From a virus, in the IMG/VR virus record IMGVR_UViG_3300008110_000668, positions 1-20,789 of that record: a DNA stretch of 20,789 bases, one strand, 5' to 3'. Within the stretch, counting starts at the first letter, position 1. Every line of letters begins with the position of its first letter. The position numbers and the translations under genes were made by a program. Of the stretch, positions 4,360-17,052 are shown piece by piece. The notes under the pieces were generated by a model, which was not told the origin of the DNA, made no database searches, and saw only the letters and a list, made by a program, of their open reading frames with translations.

Positions 4360-5526
4360 ATGGAGTTTATATTAACTACTGCAATTAAAAAGTTATTACG
4401 TTTAAAGCAACGTATTAAAGTTATTAGAGGTGGAACATCAGCTGGTAAAACATTTGGTATTCTACCTTTACTAATTGACAAAGCAATTAAAGAACCTAAT
4501 TTAGAAATTAGTGTAGTATCTGAAAGTATACCACATTTACGTAGAGGTGCATTAAAAGACTTCTTAAAGATTATAATGGCACTTGGTAGATATAATGATG
4601 AACAATTTAATAAATCTACTTTAAAGTATAGTTTTACAAACGGAAGTTATATTGAGTTTTTTAGTGTTGACCAACCTGACAAATTAAGAGGTGCAAGAAG
4701 AAACATATTATATGTTAATGAGTGCAACAATATAGATTTTGAAAGTTACTATCAATTAGCAATTAGAACTTCAGGTGATATATGGTTAGATTATAATCCT
4801 ACTTCAGCATTTTGGGTAGATAAAGAAATATTAACGCAATCGGATGTTGATTTTATTACATTAACTTATTTAGATAATGAAGCATTATCAGATACAATAG
4901 TGCAAGAAATAGAAGCAGCAAAAGTAAAAGCATTAACATCTACATATTGGGCAAATTGGTGGCAAGTTTATGGTTTAGGTCAAACAGGTAGTTTAGAAGG
5001 TGTATGTATTACTGATTGGCAAGAAATAGATTTACCAGCAGATGCAAGAATATTATGTTATGGAATGGACTTTGGTTATAGTAATGACCCAACAAGTTTA
5101 GTAACAATGTACAAATATAATGATGCTTATATATTTGATGAAGTAATTTATAAGAAAGGATTATTAAATAGTGAAATATCTAATTTGTTAAAAGCAAATA
5201 ATGTAAACGAAATTGTTTATGCTGATAGTGCTGAACCAAAATCAATAGCTGAATTAAATAGTTATGGTCATAATGTATTACCAGTATCAAAAGGAAAAGA
5301 TAGTATCTTATTTGGTCTTAATTTAATTAATCAAAACAAAGTTTATGTTACATCAAGAAGCAAGAACTTAATTAACGAATTAAGAAACTACATTTGGCAA
5401 ACTGATAAGACAGGAATTAAAATGAATAGACCAATAGATGCATACAATCACGCAATAGATGCTATGCGTTATGCTATAACAAGTCAATTAGAAAATCCAC
5501 ATAAAGGAAACTATTTTATATATTAA
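4360..5526 (+). CDS. terL: Terminase large subunit (PBSX/Terminase_3 family)
   Basis: The 388-residue packaging motor docks on the portal, pumps DNA into the prohead and cuts it. ATPase half: Walker A GGTSAGKT (24-31), hydrophobic Walker B strand ILYVNE (116-121, E121 as likely catalytic glutamate), then a DYNPTS segment (144-149). Nuclease half (RNase H fold): GMDFGYSNDPTS with D237, YADSAEPKSI with D289, and NHAIDAMRYA with D367 as the three metal-binding acidic residues. All key motifs are present, so the enzyme looks intact. Length is slightly below the usual 400-430. The start ATG follows the small subunit by 11 nt, and an AT-rich hairpin overlaps its stop. Confidence 0.95.
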   Translation: MEFILTTAIKKLLRLKQRIKVIRGGTSAGKTFGILPLLIDKAIKEPNLEISVVSESIPHLRRGALKDFLKIIMALGRYNDEQFNKSTLKYSFTNGSYIEFFSVDQPDKLRGARRNILYVNECNNIDFESYYQLAIRTSGDIWLDYNPTSAFWVDKEILTQSDVDFITLTYLDNEALSDTIVQEIEAAKVKALTSTYWANWWQVYGLGQTGSLEGVCITDWQEIDLPADARILCYGMDFGYSNDPTSLVTMYKYNDAYIFDEVIYKKGLLNSEISNLLKANNVNEIVYADSAEPKSIAELNSYGHNVLPVSKGKDSILFGLNLINQNKVYVTSRSKNLINELRNYIWQTDKTGIKMNRPIDAYNHAIDAMRYAITSQLENPHKGNYFIY

Positions 5527-6359: not shown

Positions 6360-7037
6360 ATGAAGTTACAAATTACAATACCAACAAGTTTAGAAGAAAT
6401 AACATTAGAGCAGTATCAAAAGTTTTTATCTATTGCAAAAGATAATCCTGATGGTGAATTTCTACAACATAAAATGGTAGAAATATTTTGCGGTATAGAT
6501 TTAAAGAATGCTGCTAAAATAAGTTACAAAGATGTAAATGAAATAACAACTAATTTATCAAATCTATTCAATCAAAAATATGAATTGAAAAGAACATTTA
6601 AATTAGGTAATACTGAATTTGGATTTATAACTAACCTTGATGAAATAACGTTAGGTGAATATACTGATTTAGATAAATACATAAGTGATTGGGATAAGAT
6701 GCATAATGCAATGGCAGTATTATACAGACCAATTACAAAGAAGTTAAAAGACAAATATCAGATTGAAGAATACAATGGTAGTTATACTTATTGTGATGCA
6801 ATGAAATATGCACCAGTAGATGTTGTATTAGGTGCTGTTGTTTTTTTTTACAATTTAGGCAACGAATTGTTGAAGTCTACGATACATTATTTGGAGAACA
6901 ACAAGGAGTTTCAGAGTATAGCAAACAATCACAATTTGGAAGTAAATGGGGTTGGTATTCATCATTCTATGCTCTTGCTCAAGGAGATGTTAGAAGATTT
7001 GAAGATGTTTCCAGACTTCGATTATCAGTTGCATTAA
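6360..7037 (+). CDS. Putative tail assembly chaperone, zero-frame product (225 aa)
   Basis: Starts MKLQITIPTSLEEITLEQYQ and contains NLDEITLGEYTDLDKYISDWD (about 92-112) and AVLYRPITKKLKDKY (119-133), a pattern I associate with a conserved Bacteroidota siphophage protein. The zero frame runs through a T9 tract (6841-6849) and ends VGIHHSMLLLKEMLEDLKMF..., which also looks like genuine protein. A -1 slip at that tract gives an alternative 246-residue product. A short form and a -1 frameshifted long form from one start are the hallmark of gpG/gpGT-type tail chaperones, which coat the tape measure during tail assembly. Against this, it is not adjacent to the tape measure (11657), so the role is inferred. 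The inverted-repeat leader element lies 5 nt before the ATG. Confidence 0.7.
   Translation: MKLQITIPTSLEEITLEQYQKFLSIAKDNPDGEFLQHKMVEIFCGIDLKNAAKISYKDVNEITTNLSNLFNQKYELKRTFKLGNTEFGFITNLDEITLGEYTDLDKYISDWDKMHNAMAVLYRPITKKLKDKYQIEEYNGSYTYCDAMKYAPVDVVLGAVVFFYNLGNELLKSTIHYLENNKEFQSIANNHNLEVNGVGIHHSMLLLKEMLEDLKMFPDFDYQLH
6842..6848 (+). other. Candidate -1 ribosomal frameshift site, T TTT TTT
   Basis: In the zero frame the codons are GTT GTT TTT TTT TAC, so the heptamer T TTT TTT fits X XXY YYZ and allows both tRNAs to re-pair after a -1 slip; the whole run is nine Ts (6841-6849). The -1 frame then stays open to 7099. I did not identify a clear downstream pseudoknot or stem by eye. Confidence 0.65.
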
Positions 7038-7099
7038 CATTTTTAACGTTTGAGAAAGAAAAGAACCAAATAGAAACAGAATTAATAAGAAGTAAATAA
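6848..7099 (+). CDS. -1 frame extension of the putative tail chaperone (83 codons plus stop)
   Basis: Read in the -1 frame after the T9 slip, this gives LQFRQRIVEVYDTLFG..., then FGSKWGWYSSFYALAQGD and VRRFEDVSRLRLSVALTFL, ending in a charged helix KEKNQIETELIRSK. Aromatic G-W-Y..Y.LA.GD..RFE patterns are familiar from tail chaperone partner proteins in related phages. The -1 frame is open only from 6797 and contains no ATG, GTG or TTG before its stop, so frameshifting is the only visible way to translate it. Its TAA overlaps the next ATG (TAATG, 7097-7101), the junction style used by neighbouring genes. The full frameshift protein would have 163 + 83 = 246 residues. Codons here look more typical of this genome than those of the overlapping zero frame. 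Confidence 0.7.
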   Translation, partial: LQFRQRIVEVYDTLFGEQQGVSEYSKQSQFGSKWGWYSSFYALAQGDVRRFEDVSRLRLSVALTFLTFEKEKNQIETELIRSK

Positions 7100-7566
7100 T
7101 GAAAGGATTTTATCAGGTAACAACAGCAATTAAAGACCAACTATATAAAGATGTATTTGTTAATACAGTTTCATCTGGTGATATATTTGAAATTGATTTA
7201 AACAAGCAAACTATATTTCCTTTGTCGCATATTATTGTAAACAATGCAACGTATAATAATAACACTTGGTTATTTAATATATCAGTTCTATGTATGGATG
7301 TTGTAGATTTTAGTAAGACTGAACAAACAGACCAGTTTTTAACAAATGATAATGAGCAAGATGTGTTACATACTCAACTAATGGTTATTAATAGATTGTT
7401 AGAAGTATTACGCAGAGGTTCTTTAAATGATGCTGGTTATGAATTAAGTGGTACACCTAATTGCGAACCATTTGTAGATAGGTTTGAAAACAAGATAGCT
7501 GGTTGGACTGTTACATTTGATGTAATGGTAGCTAATGAAATGACAAGTTGCGAAAATGAATGCTAA
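7099..7566 (+). CDS. Probable tail terminator-like protein (155 aa)
   Basis: Overlaps the -1 frame stop by one base. Opens MKGFYQVTTAIKDQLYKD (helix) followed by strands FPLSHIIVNNATY, WLFNISVLCMDVVD and the helix EQDVLHTQLMVINRLLEVLRR, ending with AGWTVTFDVMVANEM. This alpha/beta order (helix 1, beta hairpin, helix, final strand) matches tail terminator or head-tail joining proteins of siphophages, which cap the tail tube. Position before a gp10-like gene supports a neck role. I recognise the family pattern from Bacteroidota phages, where it is usually left as hypothetical. Confidence 0.6.
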   Translation: MKGFYQVTTAIKDQLYKDVFVNTVSSGDIFEIDLNKQTIFPLSHIIVNNATYNNNTWLFNISVLCMDVVDFSKTEQTDQFLTNDNEQDVLHTQLMVINRLLEVLRRGSLNDAGYELSGTPNCEPFVDRFENKIAGWTVTFDVMVANEMTSCENEC

Positions 7567-11526: not shown

Positions 11527-11675
11527 TGATAAAGTTAATATTAGAAATGCTACAATTAGATGAGCATTACGGACAATCAGAAACAATAGAAATAGCAAAA
11601 GGTAAATATGAATTACCAACAACTTGGTCAAGAACATTTAAACAAATAAAAAGAGAATGGAAAATAAAGAAATAA
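11526..11675 (+). CDS. Small hypothetical protein preceding the tape measure (49 aa)
   Basis: The ATG overlaps the previous stop (TAATG) and the end overlaps the tape measure start by 19 nt, so the frame is bridged on both sides. Sequence: MIKLILEMLQLDEHYGQSE, then YELPTTWSRTFKQIKREWK and a basic end. A very short gene squeezed before the tape measure might assist tail assembly, but there is no recognisable family. The tight coupling is the main support. Confidence 0.5.
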   Translation: MIKLILEMLQLDEHYGQSETIEIAKGKYELPTTWSRTFKQIKREWKIKK

Positions 11676-13567
11676 ATTTAAAGATAAATAGTAACATTGA
11701 TGATGTAACTAAAGAAATTAAATCTTTAAATAAAAATTTAGATAAGACAACTGATGTAGTAAAAGATGTTGGTAAAAGCACTAAAGAGGTTGAAAAAAAT
11801 ACAAAAACTTTAGCTGATGGTTTCAAAGGTGTAGGATTAGCAATTAAAGCTATGGGCATTGGTCTTGTGATTAGTGCTATGTCTACATTGAAAGAAGTAT
11901 TTATGAGCAATCAAAAGGTTGCTGATACAGTTGCTACTGGTATGGGAACAGTTGTTAATGTATTTACTAAAGTTGTTGATGTTGTTGTTTCAGTTGTTGA
12001 AAAGGTTAATCAATCAAGTAATGGATTTAAAGGATTAACAGCAGTTATTTCTGGTTTAATTACAATATCATTAACACCATTAAAATTAGGTTTCTATGCA
12101 ATATCTTTAGCTATTGATGAAGCCAAACTTGCTTGGGAAGAAAGTTTCTTTGGTGATGAAGACCCAAAAACAATAGAAAAATTAAATAAAAGAATTTCTG
12201 CAACAAAAGATAATATTGTTGAAGTTGGTAAAGATGCATTAGATGCTGGAAAGAAAGTTGCAAATAATATTGGTGCTGCTATAACTGAAGTAGGTGCAGT
12301 AGTTGAAGGAACAATAGATGGTGTTAGTAAGATATCTGTTAAAGCTGCTTATGACCAAGCAAAAGCAAATGTTCAATTACAGAACACAGCAAAGTTAGCA
12401 GAAGCAAATCAAGCAAGGTTAGTTGAACAATATGACAGACAAGCAGAAAAATTAAGACAAATAAGAGATAATGATTTAATTTCTATTGATGACAGAATAA
12501 AAGCAAATAATGATTTAAAAGATGTTTTAGATAAACAACAAAAAGCTATGATTGGTCAAGCAGATATGCAAATTGCTGCTGCCAAGAATACTTATGAAAT
12601 GAATAAAACTATTGAAAATCAAGTAGCTTTAACAAATGCTTTAGCAAACAAAGAAGGTGTACTTGCACAGGTTGAAGGATTACGAAGTGAACAAATAGCA
12701 AATAACATAGCATTAACAAAAGAGAAAACTGCATTACAACAATCAGAACTTGAAGGTATAACTAATTTATCTATTGAGCAAAAGAAATTTAATGCTGAAT
12801 TAGAAAAAGATGATTTATTAAGATTACAAAAACAAAAGGCAGTATTAGAAGAAGAAAAAGCTATTGAACTTGCAAGATTACAATCTAAAATAGATGGTGC
12901 TGTAAAAGGAACACAAGCAAGAGTAGATGCAGAAAATGAATACAAAACAAAATCACAAGAAATAAACAATGCAATAATAACTAATAAAGCAGAAACTGAT
13001 AAGGTAATTCTTGACCAAGAAAAAGCAGTTGCTGAAGGTAAAAAAGCTATTCAAGATGCTTCATTTGCTGCTATGGAAGGTGGTATTAATTTATTAAAAG
13101 GTTTATTTGAAAAAAACAAAGCAATTCAAAAAGGATTATTGTTAGTAGAAAGTGCTGTTGGTATTGCTAAAATTGTTACTAATACAGTTGCTGCTGATGC
13201 TGCTGATGGTCTTGTTGCTGCTACAATGGGTCCAGCTGGTATTGCATATAAAGCAACTAAATTTACTTTAAATAGAATTAATGCTGGTATTGGTATTGCT
13301 GCAAATATAGCTGCTACTGCAAAAGCATTAAGTGCATTAGGTGGTGGTGGTTCATCAAGTAAACCTGATATGGGTGGTGGCGCTGGAGGTGGTGTTGGTG
13401 CTGCTCCACAATTTAATGTAGTAGGAAATAGTGGTGTTAATCAATTAGCAGAAACAATGCAAGGAAGGTCAGCACAAGCACCAATACAAGCATATGTAGT
13501 TGCACAAAATGTAACAACAGCACAATCATTAAATAGAAACATAGTTAGTAATGCTTCTTTAGGATAG
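11657..13567 (+). CDS. Tape measure protein (636 aa)
   Basis: Sets tail length by spanning the tail lumen. The N-terminus is charged and helical (1-50). Hydrophobic membrane-like segments follow at about 56-78 (GFKGVGLAIKAMGIGLVISA) and 126-153 (GLTAVISGLITISLTPLKL). Long Ala/Lys/Glu/Gln-rich coiled coils run from about 230 to 470, then a second hydrophobic Ala/Gly region (493-565), a poly-Gly linker (562-581), and a C-terminal AYVVAQNVTTAQSLNRNIVS typical of Bacteroidota tape measures. No peptidase or lytic transglycosylase domain. At about 0.15 nm per residue the tail would be roughly 95 nm long, short for a siphophage. Confidence 0.88.
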   Translation: MENKEINLKINSNIDDVTKEIKSLNKNLDKTTDVVKDVGKSTKEVEKNTKTLADGFKGVGLAIKAMGIGLVISAMSTLKEVFMSNQKVADTVATGMGTVVNVFTKVVDVVVSVVEKVNQSSNGFKGLTAVISGLITISLTPLKLGFYAISLAIDEAKLAWEESFFGDEDPKTIEKLNKRISATKDNIVEVGKDALDAGKKVANNIGAAITEVGAVVEGTIDGVSKISVKAAYDQAKANVQLQNTAKLAEANQARLVEQYDRQAEKLRQIRDNDLISIDDRIKANNDLKDVLDKQQKAMIGQADMQIAAAKNTYEMNKTIENQVALTNALANKEGVLAQVEGLRSEQIANNIALTKEKTALQQSELEGITNLSIEQKKFNAELEKDDLLRLQKQKAVLEEEKAIELARLQSKIDGAVKGTQARVDAENEYKTKSQEINNAIITNKAETDKVILDQEKAVAEGKKAIQDASFAAMEGGINLLKGLFEKNKAIQKGLLLVESAVGIAKIVTNTVAADAADGLVAATMGPAGIAYKATKFTLNRINAGIGIAANIAATAKALSALGGGGSSSKPDMGGGAGGGVGAAPQFNVVGNSGVNQLAETMQGRSAQAPIQAYVVAQNVTTAQSLNRNIVSNASLG

Positions 13568-15505: not shown

Positions 15506-16450
15506 ATGGCTACAACAACAAGTATTACAACAACTTATGCTGGAGAATTTGCTGGTAAGTATATATCTGCTGCATTATTATCTGCTTCTACTATCGAAAA
15601 TGGTGGTATTGAAGTAAAACCAAACATCAAATACAAAGAGGTAATCAAGAAAATTGCAACTGACGGGATTGTTAAGAATGCAACTTGTGATTTTGATGCT
15701 ACTTCTACTGTAACATTAACTGAAAGAATTATACAACCAGAAGAATTTCAGGTAAATTTGCAATTATGCAAGAAAGATTTCCGTAGTGATTGGGAAGCGG
15801 TTCAAATGGGTTATTCTACATTTGATACTTTGCCACCTGCATTTGCTGATTTCTTATTAGCACACGTTGCAGCTAAAGTTGCTGAAAAAACAGAACAAAA
15901 CATTTGGAAAGGTGCTACTGCTACTGCTGGTGAGTTTGACGGATTTGTAACACTTGCTACTGCTGATGCAACTGTTTTAGATGTAGCTTCTCCTGCTTCA
16001 GGTGGTGTAACTGCTGCTAATGTAATTGCTGAAATGGGTAAAGTAGTGGATTTAATTCCTGCTACACTTTACGGAAAAGAAGATTTGTATTTATACGTTT
16101 CACAATCAGTTGCTCGTGATTATGTAAGAGCATTAGGTGGATTTGGAGCATCAGGTTTAGGTGCTAATGGTACAAACGCACAAGGAACACAATGGTGGAA
16201 CAATGGTTCACTTTCTTTTGATGGTGTTAAAATCTTTGTTTGTAATGGTATGGCTAACGATTATATGATGGCTGCTCAAAAATCTAACTTATTCTTTGGA
16301 ACTGGTTTATTAGCAGATAGCCAAGAAGTTAAGTTAATTGATTTGTCTGACCTTGATGGTTCACAAAATGTTAGAGTAGTAATGAGATTTACTGCTGGTG
16401 TACAATACGGAATTGGTTCAGAGATTGTACTTTACACTCCTGCAGCATAA
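15506..16450 (+). CDS. Major capsid protein (HK97-fold type)
   Basis: The 314-residue main shell protein. It starts MATTTSITTTYAGEFAGKYI and has NGGIEVKPNIKYKEVIKKI, then LCKKDFRSDWEAVQMGYSTF, a helix FADFLLAHVAAKVAEKTEQN (compatible with the long spine helix), LYLYVSQSVARDYVRALGG, and a C-terminal MRFTAGVQYGIGSEIVLYT. This is the pattern of Bacteroidota phage capsid proteins preceded by a scaffold. It uses more G/C-ending codons and a wider codon range than the neighbours, and a strong terminator follows, both fitting very high expression. No Ig-like insertion seen. Confidence 0.85.
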   Translation: MATTTSITTTYAGEFAGKYISAALLSASTIENGGIEVKPNIKYKEVIKKIATDGIVKNATCDFDATSTVTLTERIIQPEEFQVNLQLCKKDFRSDWEAVQMGYSTFDTLPPAFADFLLAHVAAKVAEKTEQNIWKGATATAGEFDGFVTLATADATVLDVASPASGGVTAANVIAEMGKVVDLIPATLYGKEDLYLYVSQSVARDYVRALGGFGASGLGANGTNAQGTQWWNNGSLSFDGVKIFVCNGMANDYMMAAQKSNLFFGTGLLADSQEVKLIDLSDLDGSQNVRVVMRFTAGVQYGIGSEIVLYTPAA

Positions 16451-16469: not shown

Positions 16470-16504
16470 AAAAGGGTGGTGGAATAAACACCACCTTTTT
16501 TTTT
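16470..16504 (+). terminator. Strong intrinsic terminator after the capsid gene
   Basis: GGTGGTG (16475-16481) pairs with CACCACC (16489-16495), extended by A/G-T pairs to about 12 bp, with loop GAATAAA and a run of nine Ts (16496-16504). This is the strongest hairpin in the window. Confidence 0.9.
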
Positions 16505-16524: not shown

Positions 16525-17052
16525 ATGGCTTGTGATATTAGTTTAGGTAGATTAGAACCTTGTAAAGATAGTTCAGGAGGTTTAAAAGCAGTTTATTTTG
16601 TTAATTGGGGTGATGCTACAGGATACACTTACGATGGAACAAATACAGATGTTATTGATGCAGTAGCTGGAACACCAACAGCATACAAATATGAGTTGAA
16701 AGGTAATTCATCTTTTACACAAACAATTACATCTTCAAGAGAAAATGGTACTACATTCTTTCAACAAGAATTGGCATTAACTTTGAAAAAATTATCAATA
16801 GTTGACCACAAACAAATTAAACTTTTGGCTTATGGTAGACCACAAGTAATTGTTGAAGATAACAATGGTAATTTCTTCTATTGTGGATTAGAACACGGAA
16901 TGGATGTAACTGGAGGCACAATAGTCAGTGGCGCAGCAATGGGCGACCTCTCAGGATATACACTTACATTGACAGGAATGGAGCAAGTACCAGCGAATTT
17001 CATTGGAGATACTTTAGCTGGTGCTGGATTTACAGTAGTAGTAGGTTCTTAA
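16525..17052 (+). CDS. Probable major tail (tube) protein (175 aa)
   Basis: Begins MACDISLGRLEPCKDSSGGL, then AVYFVNWGD, TAYKYELKGNSSFTQTITS, SRENGTTFFQQELALTLKKL, HKQIKLLAYGRPQVIVEDN, and GAAMGDLSGYTLTLTGMEQ. The beta-sandwich layout with one central helix region, the size and the ...GYTLTLTG.E..PA end fit tail tube proteins; relatives in Bacteroidota phages are abundant virion proteins. It stands alone between two strong terminators, so it is expressed as its own high-level unit, as expected for a structural subunit needed in many copies. No clear -7 box is seen in front; the leader is TTTAAAAAAATATAAAT. A head decoration protein is the alternative. Confidence 0.7.
   Translation: MACDISLGRLEPCKDSSGGLKAVYFVNWGDATGYTYDGTNTDVIDAVAGTPTAYKYELKGNSSFTQTITSSRENGTTFFQQELALTLKKLSIVDHKQIKLLAYGRPQVIVEDNNGNFFYCGLEHGMDVTGGTIVSGAAMGDLSGYTLTLTGMEQVPANFIGDTLAGAGFTVVVGS

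Follow-up and report, generated by a model that had tools for sequence, protein, structure and literature searches.

Ribosomal −1 frameshifting is the textbook means by which the product ratio of tail assembly chaperones is controlled. The gene for gpE and gpE+E′ of phage P2 (Phage_TAC_7; phrog_103, phrog_166) specifies a short and a −1-extended product from a T-rich slip site (T TTT TTG), at which six Ts suffice; its zero frame ends 6 codons past the site, and the gene adjoins that of the tape measure protein. Phages lambda (gpG and gpGT) and HK97 (gp13 and its −1 fusion product) follow the same two-product logic by a −1 shift, using a GGGAAAG-type site and an overlap of a few codons. Across P2, HK97, and lambda, the zero frame ends about 4 to 6 codons past the sites. 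A further set of genes, the Thermus dnaX (9 Ts) and the IS elements with A9, have in common a conserved run of 9 As or Ts, avoidance of long runs elsewhere in coding sequence, and an extra protein from the shifted frame (PMC5009743, PMC1088944). In the cultured Nonlabens phages P12024L and P12024S, the adjacent gp40 and gp41 (phrog_32199 and phrog_38404) are annotated as two unrelated hypothetical proteins.

We examined a gene on a 20.8-kb IMG/VR virus fragment (positions 1 to 20,789; hereafter, the window), in which one message appears to give rise to two proteins by a one-base backward slip at a run of nine Ts (T9). Like the P2 gene, it would encode a short and a −1-extended product from a T-rich site, and the two families are weakly linked by a profile (phrog_166) that covers the helical N-terminal region. 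Unlike the P2 gene, it has at least nine Ts at the site, remains open in the zero frame for 54 to 82 codons past it in nearly all family members, and adjoins the gene for the terminase large subunit (TerL). The two-product logic is shared with lambda and HK97, but the gene order is different and sequence similarity was not found. The conserved run is shared with dnaX and the IS elements, but dnaX encodes a replicase and the IS elements encode transposases, whereas the present gene is a phage gene of the assembly type with a long, doubly constrained overlap. P12024L and P12024S gp40 and gp41 are homologous to its N-terminal and −1 domains and share its T9, including the phase, but their zero-frame tail comprises only 25 codons.

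Two-frame layout and its conservation

The terminase region of the window matches Flavobacterium phages at the DNA level, and the frameshifted gene matches those of P12024L and P12024S at the protein level. The T run and the ends of the two frames lie where a preliminary description of this sequence had placed them (Table 1). The run is read as GTT TTT TTT TAC, and 62 sense codons follow in the zero frame before the stop at 7035 to 7037. Positions 6797 to 7099 are open in the −1 frame, which is bounded by a TGA and by the TAA at 7097 to 7099 and encodes LQFRQRIVEVYDTLFGEQQGVSEYSKQSQFGSKWGWYSSFYALAQGDVRRFEDVSRLRLSVALTFLTFEKEKNQIETELIRSK past the T run. As also described earlier, this TAA overlaps the ATG of the following gene at 7099 (TAATG).

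TABLE 1 Features of the frameshifted gene and its surroundings in the window
Feature	Position	Strand	Description
Zero-frame ORF	6360..7037	+	225 aa; short product; ATG at 6360; N-terminal domain (about residues 1-163) plus 62-residue zero-frame tail; basis: phrog_32199 (E 6.6e−23) and AF2 pLDDT
T9 run, candidate slippage site	6841..6849	+	In-frame heptamer T TTT TTT at 6842-6848
−1 frame extension	6848..7099	+	83 aa plus stop; FGxKWGWY...FEKEK domain
Upstream TGA of −1 frame	6794..6796	+	ATG, GTG, and TTG absent in this frame up to the slip site
Dual-coded stretch	6850..7034	+	Both frames constrained
Terminase large subunit (TerL)	4360..5526	+	Conserved upstream neighbor
Downstream neighbor	7099..7566	+	Conserved; start overlaps −1 stop
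Probable tape measure protein	11657..13567	+	Inferred from its length and composition; lies about 4.6 kb downstream

We propose that the gene would specify two proteins with a common N-terminal part of 163 residues. Most messages would yield the 225-residue zero-frame product; in a fraction, entry into the −1 frame at T9 would give a product of 246 residues with the KWGWY/FEKEK domain at its end.

Scanning with the zero-frame protein identified 258 relatives, 80 of which were kept (L004 to L083); further scans added L084 to L333 and more. Profiles of the N-terminal and −1 domains were then run over six frames of all loci. In each of the 365 locus-level pairs with both domains (not equivalent to 365 independent phages because some contigs were fetched repeatedly), the −1 domain lies in the −1 frame and the run has at least nine Ts: 9 Ts in 322 pairs, 10 in 42, and 12 in one. 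Fused domains, +1 arrangements, and runs shorter than nine Ts were found in none of these pairs. Every relative that covers the site has T9 and both frames, the layout is kept down to about 30% identity, and the heptamer at T9 has no substitution among 46 close relatives. The −1 frame carries the KWGWY motif in P12024L and KWSWY in P12024S. T9 is also present in prophage-like copies (L170 and L171) and in a very remote one (L172); two further genome matches (L173 and L174) were spurious.

The profile phrog_32199 matches the N-terminal domain of the window (Table 1) and all 57 family representatives. The phrog_38404 profile matches weakly 11 of 60 −1 domains (best value, 0.0033), and the gene order is conserved. 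On the N-domain profile and the synteny of the −1 domain, the gene thus belongs with the phrog_32199/phrog_38404 family of P12024L gp40 and gp41. We conclude from these comparisons that the two-frame arrangement is real and old. It is widespread and, as far as we searched, undescribed: a literature search of open-access papers returned no report of such an arrangement in phages of Bacteroidota.

Two other features of the window were noted. A second T9 run (16496 to 16504) is intergenic, located between the end of one open reading frame (ORF) at 16450 and the start of another at 16525, and is perhaps part of a terminator. A 103-aa ORF within positions 2174 to 2617 has a methyltransferase-like C-terminal stretch (DTHLGSGSIAIAC) for which no N-terminal part is evident in that frame.

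The agent of the proposed shift

Homologues that conserve a run of nine As or Ts at constant length are very likely to use transcriptional slippage (Baranov and colleagues, PMC1088944). Efficient slippage in vivo has been reported on nine As or Ts, and the functional site of Thermus dnaX consists of nine Ts (2016 review, PMC5009743). The family examined here has a conserved run of at least nine Ts and, as expected of slippage sites, long runs are selected against elsewhere in its coding sequence. We therefore hypothesize that RNA polymerase slips on the nine Ts and produces some mRNAs with one extra U, in which the −1 frame comes into phase. Polymerase slippage at T9 is, in our judgment, the probable agent of entry into the −1 frame, with a possible contribution from ribosomal −1 slippage on U UUU UUU.

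Classical −1 programmed ribosomal frameshifting on U UUU UUU, comparable to that on T TTT TTG of P2, would produce identical proteins by a different agent, and we regard it as a serious if less probable explanation. The in-frame heptamer is invariant and present in every member, −1 shifts are known from the chaperones of P2, HK97, and lambda (PMC5009743), and those phage tail chaperones with a known shift to which we compared the gene are described as ribosomal, a counterpoint to polymerase slippage. The presence of the heptamer is uninformative, however, because any T9 holds T TTT TTT in any register. The heptamer needs only 6 or 7 Ts, yet runs of fewer than nine are never seen. What is kept is the length of the run, while its register varies among members (GTT TTT TTT TAC, TTT TTT TTT CTG, AGT TTT TTT TTT CGT, and GGT TTT TTT TTG). 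The codon after the two Phe codons specifies Tyr, Trp, Cys, Ser, Phe, or Leu and nearly always begins with T. A further counterpoint to polymerase slippage is that the flanking Ts can in part be forced by the amino acids of the fused product (V, L, or I before and L or F after). Against a ribosomal agent, U UUU UUU ranks far below A AAA AAG in its tendency to shift in Escherichia coli (PMC5009743), and neither a consensus fold nor single folds revealed a conserved RNA structure downstream of the site.

To assess avoidance, T runs were counted across 500 kb of coding sequence elsewhere in these loci. Runs of at least eight Ts, in any register, occur 4 times versus 27.4 expected (P = 3e−8). The other genes of these phages tolerate the in-frame T7 heptamer, with 41 occurrences (61.9 expected), and T7 in other registers occurs 15 times (23.9 expected). 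Because runs of at least eight Ts are avoided and in-frame T7 is no more depleted than other T7, the avoidance tracks length and not frame, although avoidance of T≥8 could reflect replication slippage instead. Taken together, the constant length with changing register, the avoidance of T≥8, and the absent conserved structure favor polymerase slippage. Of the −1 shift on the heptamer T TTT TTT that was originally put forward, the two-product layout at the T run stood; the ribosome as its agent did not fare as well, with the evidence leaning to the polymerase.

An immediate stop in the +1 frame was considered as a sign of polymerase slippage. It is found in 155 of 155 loci, and we dropped it because it is expected by chance in 52 of 64. 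Runs of A are also depleted in coding sequence of 82 representative loci, less sharply than T≥8: A8 occurs 28 times (41.7 expected), A9 4 times (14.2 expected), and A10 or longer 0 times (9.3 expected).

Gene context and the putative tail role

The gene is part of a fixed cassette, in which it is preceded by TerL and followed by the genes starting at 7099, 7556, 8123, and 9199 and then by that of the probable tape measure protein. It adjoins TerL and therefore does not occupy the position typical of tail assembly chaperone (TAC) genes, between those of the major tail protein and the tape measure. The position far from the tape measure, considered unusual in the preliminary description, is indeed shared by relatives, with a median distance of 5.1 kb to the probable tape measure downstream (40 loci).

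The "tail protein" profile phrog_166, which picks up P2 gpE at 4e−7, gives weak matches to 16 of 57 family members (best value, 1.8e−4), in several of them over the same profile stretch as gpE. Because of this weak link and the short/long product design, a tail assembly chaperone is our best guess, and we consider it likely that the short and −1-extended products form such a pair. The layout, its conservation, the dual constraint, and the single proteins that match both domains (see below) are consistent with a frameshifted TAC, predicted to be two products that share an N terminus by way of a −1 shift. Many short subunits would coat the tape measure protein, a few long ones would recruit a tail protein, and slippage would fix their ratio. 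Of the earlier proposal of a tail chaperone, the chaperone-like design was thus retained, and the identity draws on a weak profile link and context. Pfam TAC models gave no match above cutoff, so that the gene falls outside the curated TAC families. Comparisons by hhalign to Mu gp41 and HK97 gp13 returned nothing, the annotated chaperone of FPSV-S2 showed no similarity, and a fold search of PDB gave no match of weight.

The two products might instead serve another assembly step, such as packaging or head completion. TerL is the conserved upstream neighbor, and the tape measure gene is kilobases away, as would suit such a step. The profile link of phrog_166 to P2 gpE argues against it, as do the conserved downstream genes, a tail cassette that extends to the probable tape measure, and we consider a role outside the tail to be unlikely, if less so than the explanations discussed in the next section. 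For the explanation as a whole, that is, two products, polymerase slippage as the most likely agent, and a chaperone-like pair, we hold a modest degree of confidence on the right side of even.

A remote match to the N-terminal domain was found in gp10 of Flavobacterium phage 6H (L382, 9900 to 10927, minus strand), a tail-region gene close to that of the tape measure. In the unannotated gap after gp10, one frame stays open for about 105 codons. We rejected gp10 as an instance of the same layout: the −1 frame past its T TTT TTC runs immediately into a TAG.

Selection in both frames and its implications

The preliminary description had proposed a long region selected in two frames, and the comparison of relatives bears this out. 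Substitutions per site were counted by parsimony among the 46 close relatives. At positions 1, 2, and 3 of zero-frame codons, they amount to 0.71, 0.53, and 3.82 in the zero-only part and to 0.54, 1.05, and 1.48 in the overlap; at the corresponding positions of −1-frame codons in the −1-only part, they amount to 0.31, 0.29, and 1.88. In the overlap, third positions of either frame are suppressed. The pattern differs significantly from those of the −1-only part (P = 5e−56) and the zero-only part (P = 7e−27), and neither frame alone fits it. A second clade has the same substitution pattern. A drop in synonymous change, suggested earlier as a check, was found as well: among codons with invariant amino acids, it decreases from 3.2–4.7 to 1.2–2.0 changes per codon. 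Of the zero-frame codons that had been called atypical, TTG and AAG are indeed minor codons in this phage (TTG, 25 versus 281 for TTA; AAG, 66 versus 281 for AAA).

The zero-frame tail past T9 could be functionless readthrough next to a real −1 product. AF2 predicts most of residues 1 to 170 of the zero-frame product with pLDDT above 90 and tail residues 191 to 225 with pLDDT below 50, and the tails of L171 and L172 are, like those of P12024L and P12024S, shorter; because the latter two have only 25 codons there, a long dual-coded stretch is not required in all members. Against this reading, the zero frame is open for at least 50 codons in 63 of 64 diverse relatives, while 4.0 are expected, and substitutions at −1 synonymous sites are suppressed and shifted to zero-frame third positions. 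For the window, when the −1 protein was fixed and its codons were reshuffled by phage usage, the zero frame stayed open as far as observed in 0.15% of draws. We consequently find a functionless tail improbable.

That the −1 part is a gene of its own, initiated within the overlap, is more improbable still. In P12024L and P12024S, gp41 is annotated in this way, with an ATG overlapping the stop codon of the zero frame. As described previously, however, the −1 frame of the window has no ATG, GTG, or TTG upstream of or near T9, and in 121 of 155 loci, the window among them, the −1 frame lacks such codons near its start. Conservation of the −1 frame starts exactly at the T run. Single viral proteins also match both domains: searches of BFVD with the AF2 models of the N-terminal domain and of the −1 extension (a helical domain; pLDDT, 81) returned the same proteins of 226 to 267 aa, including A0A516L611 (258 aa), A0A6J5N0W0 (267 aa), and A0A6J7WJY4 (243 aa). 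Because both models match the same proteins, natural one-frame versions of the shifted product seem to exist, as these fold matches suggest at the level of predicted structure. The separate search with both parts, advised at the outset, thus recovered phrog_32199, phrog_38404, and these two-domain proteins; a fused homologue at the DNA level was found neither among the loci in hand nor in a scan with a remote prophage as the query. P12024L gp41 (L001, 4528 to 4695), annotated as a separate gene of 55 aa, most likely constitutes the C-terminal portion of gp40's −1 extension.

A wrong homopolymer count in an ordinary, misassembled single-frame gene, which had been named as the main alternative, can be dismissed. 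Some sequencing chemistries are prone to errors in T9 runs, but the same T9 recurs in hundreds of independent assemblies and two cultured phage genomes, and selection on both frames in the overlap excludes a miscount.

These comparisons correct the annotation of the −1 domain (KWGWY), which annotation of these genomes misses or treats as a small ORF of its own. With hundreds of related sequences, the long, doubly constrained stretch offers a natural test bed for the evolution of overlapping genes. We infer that this gene of viruses of Bacteroidota bacteria probably sets the ratio of two tail-building proteins. More tentatively, and with somewhat less than even confidence, we suggest that a widespread lineage of Bacteroidota phages sets this ratio by polymerase slippage at nine or more Ts, with about 60 codons selected in both frames in most members. 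Because members such as P12024L and P12024S can be cultured, the question is directly testable. If the two-product gene is tied to run length and not to a ribosomal heptamer, control of the ratio would move to transcription.
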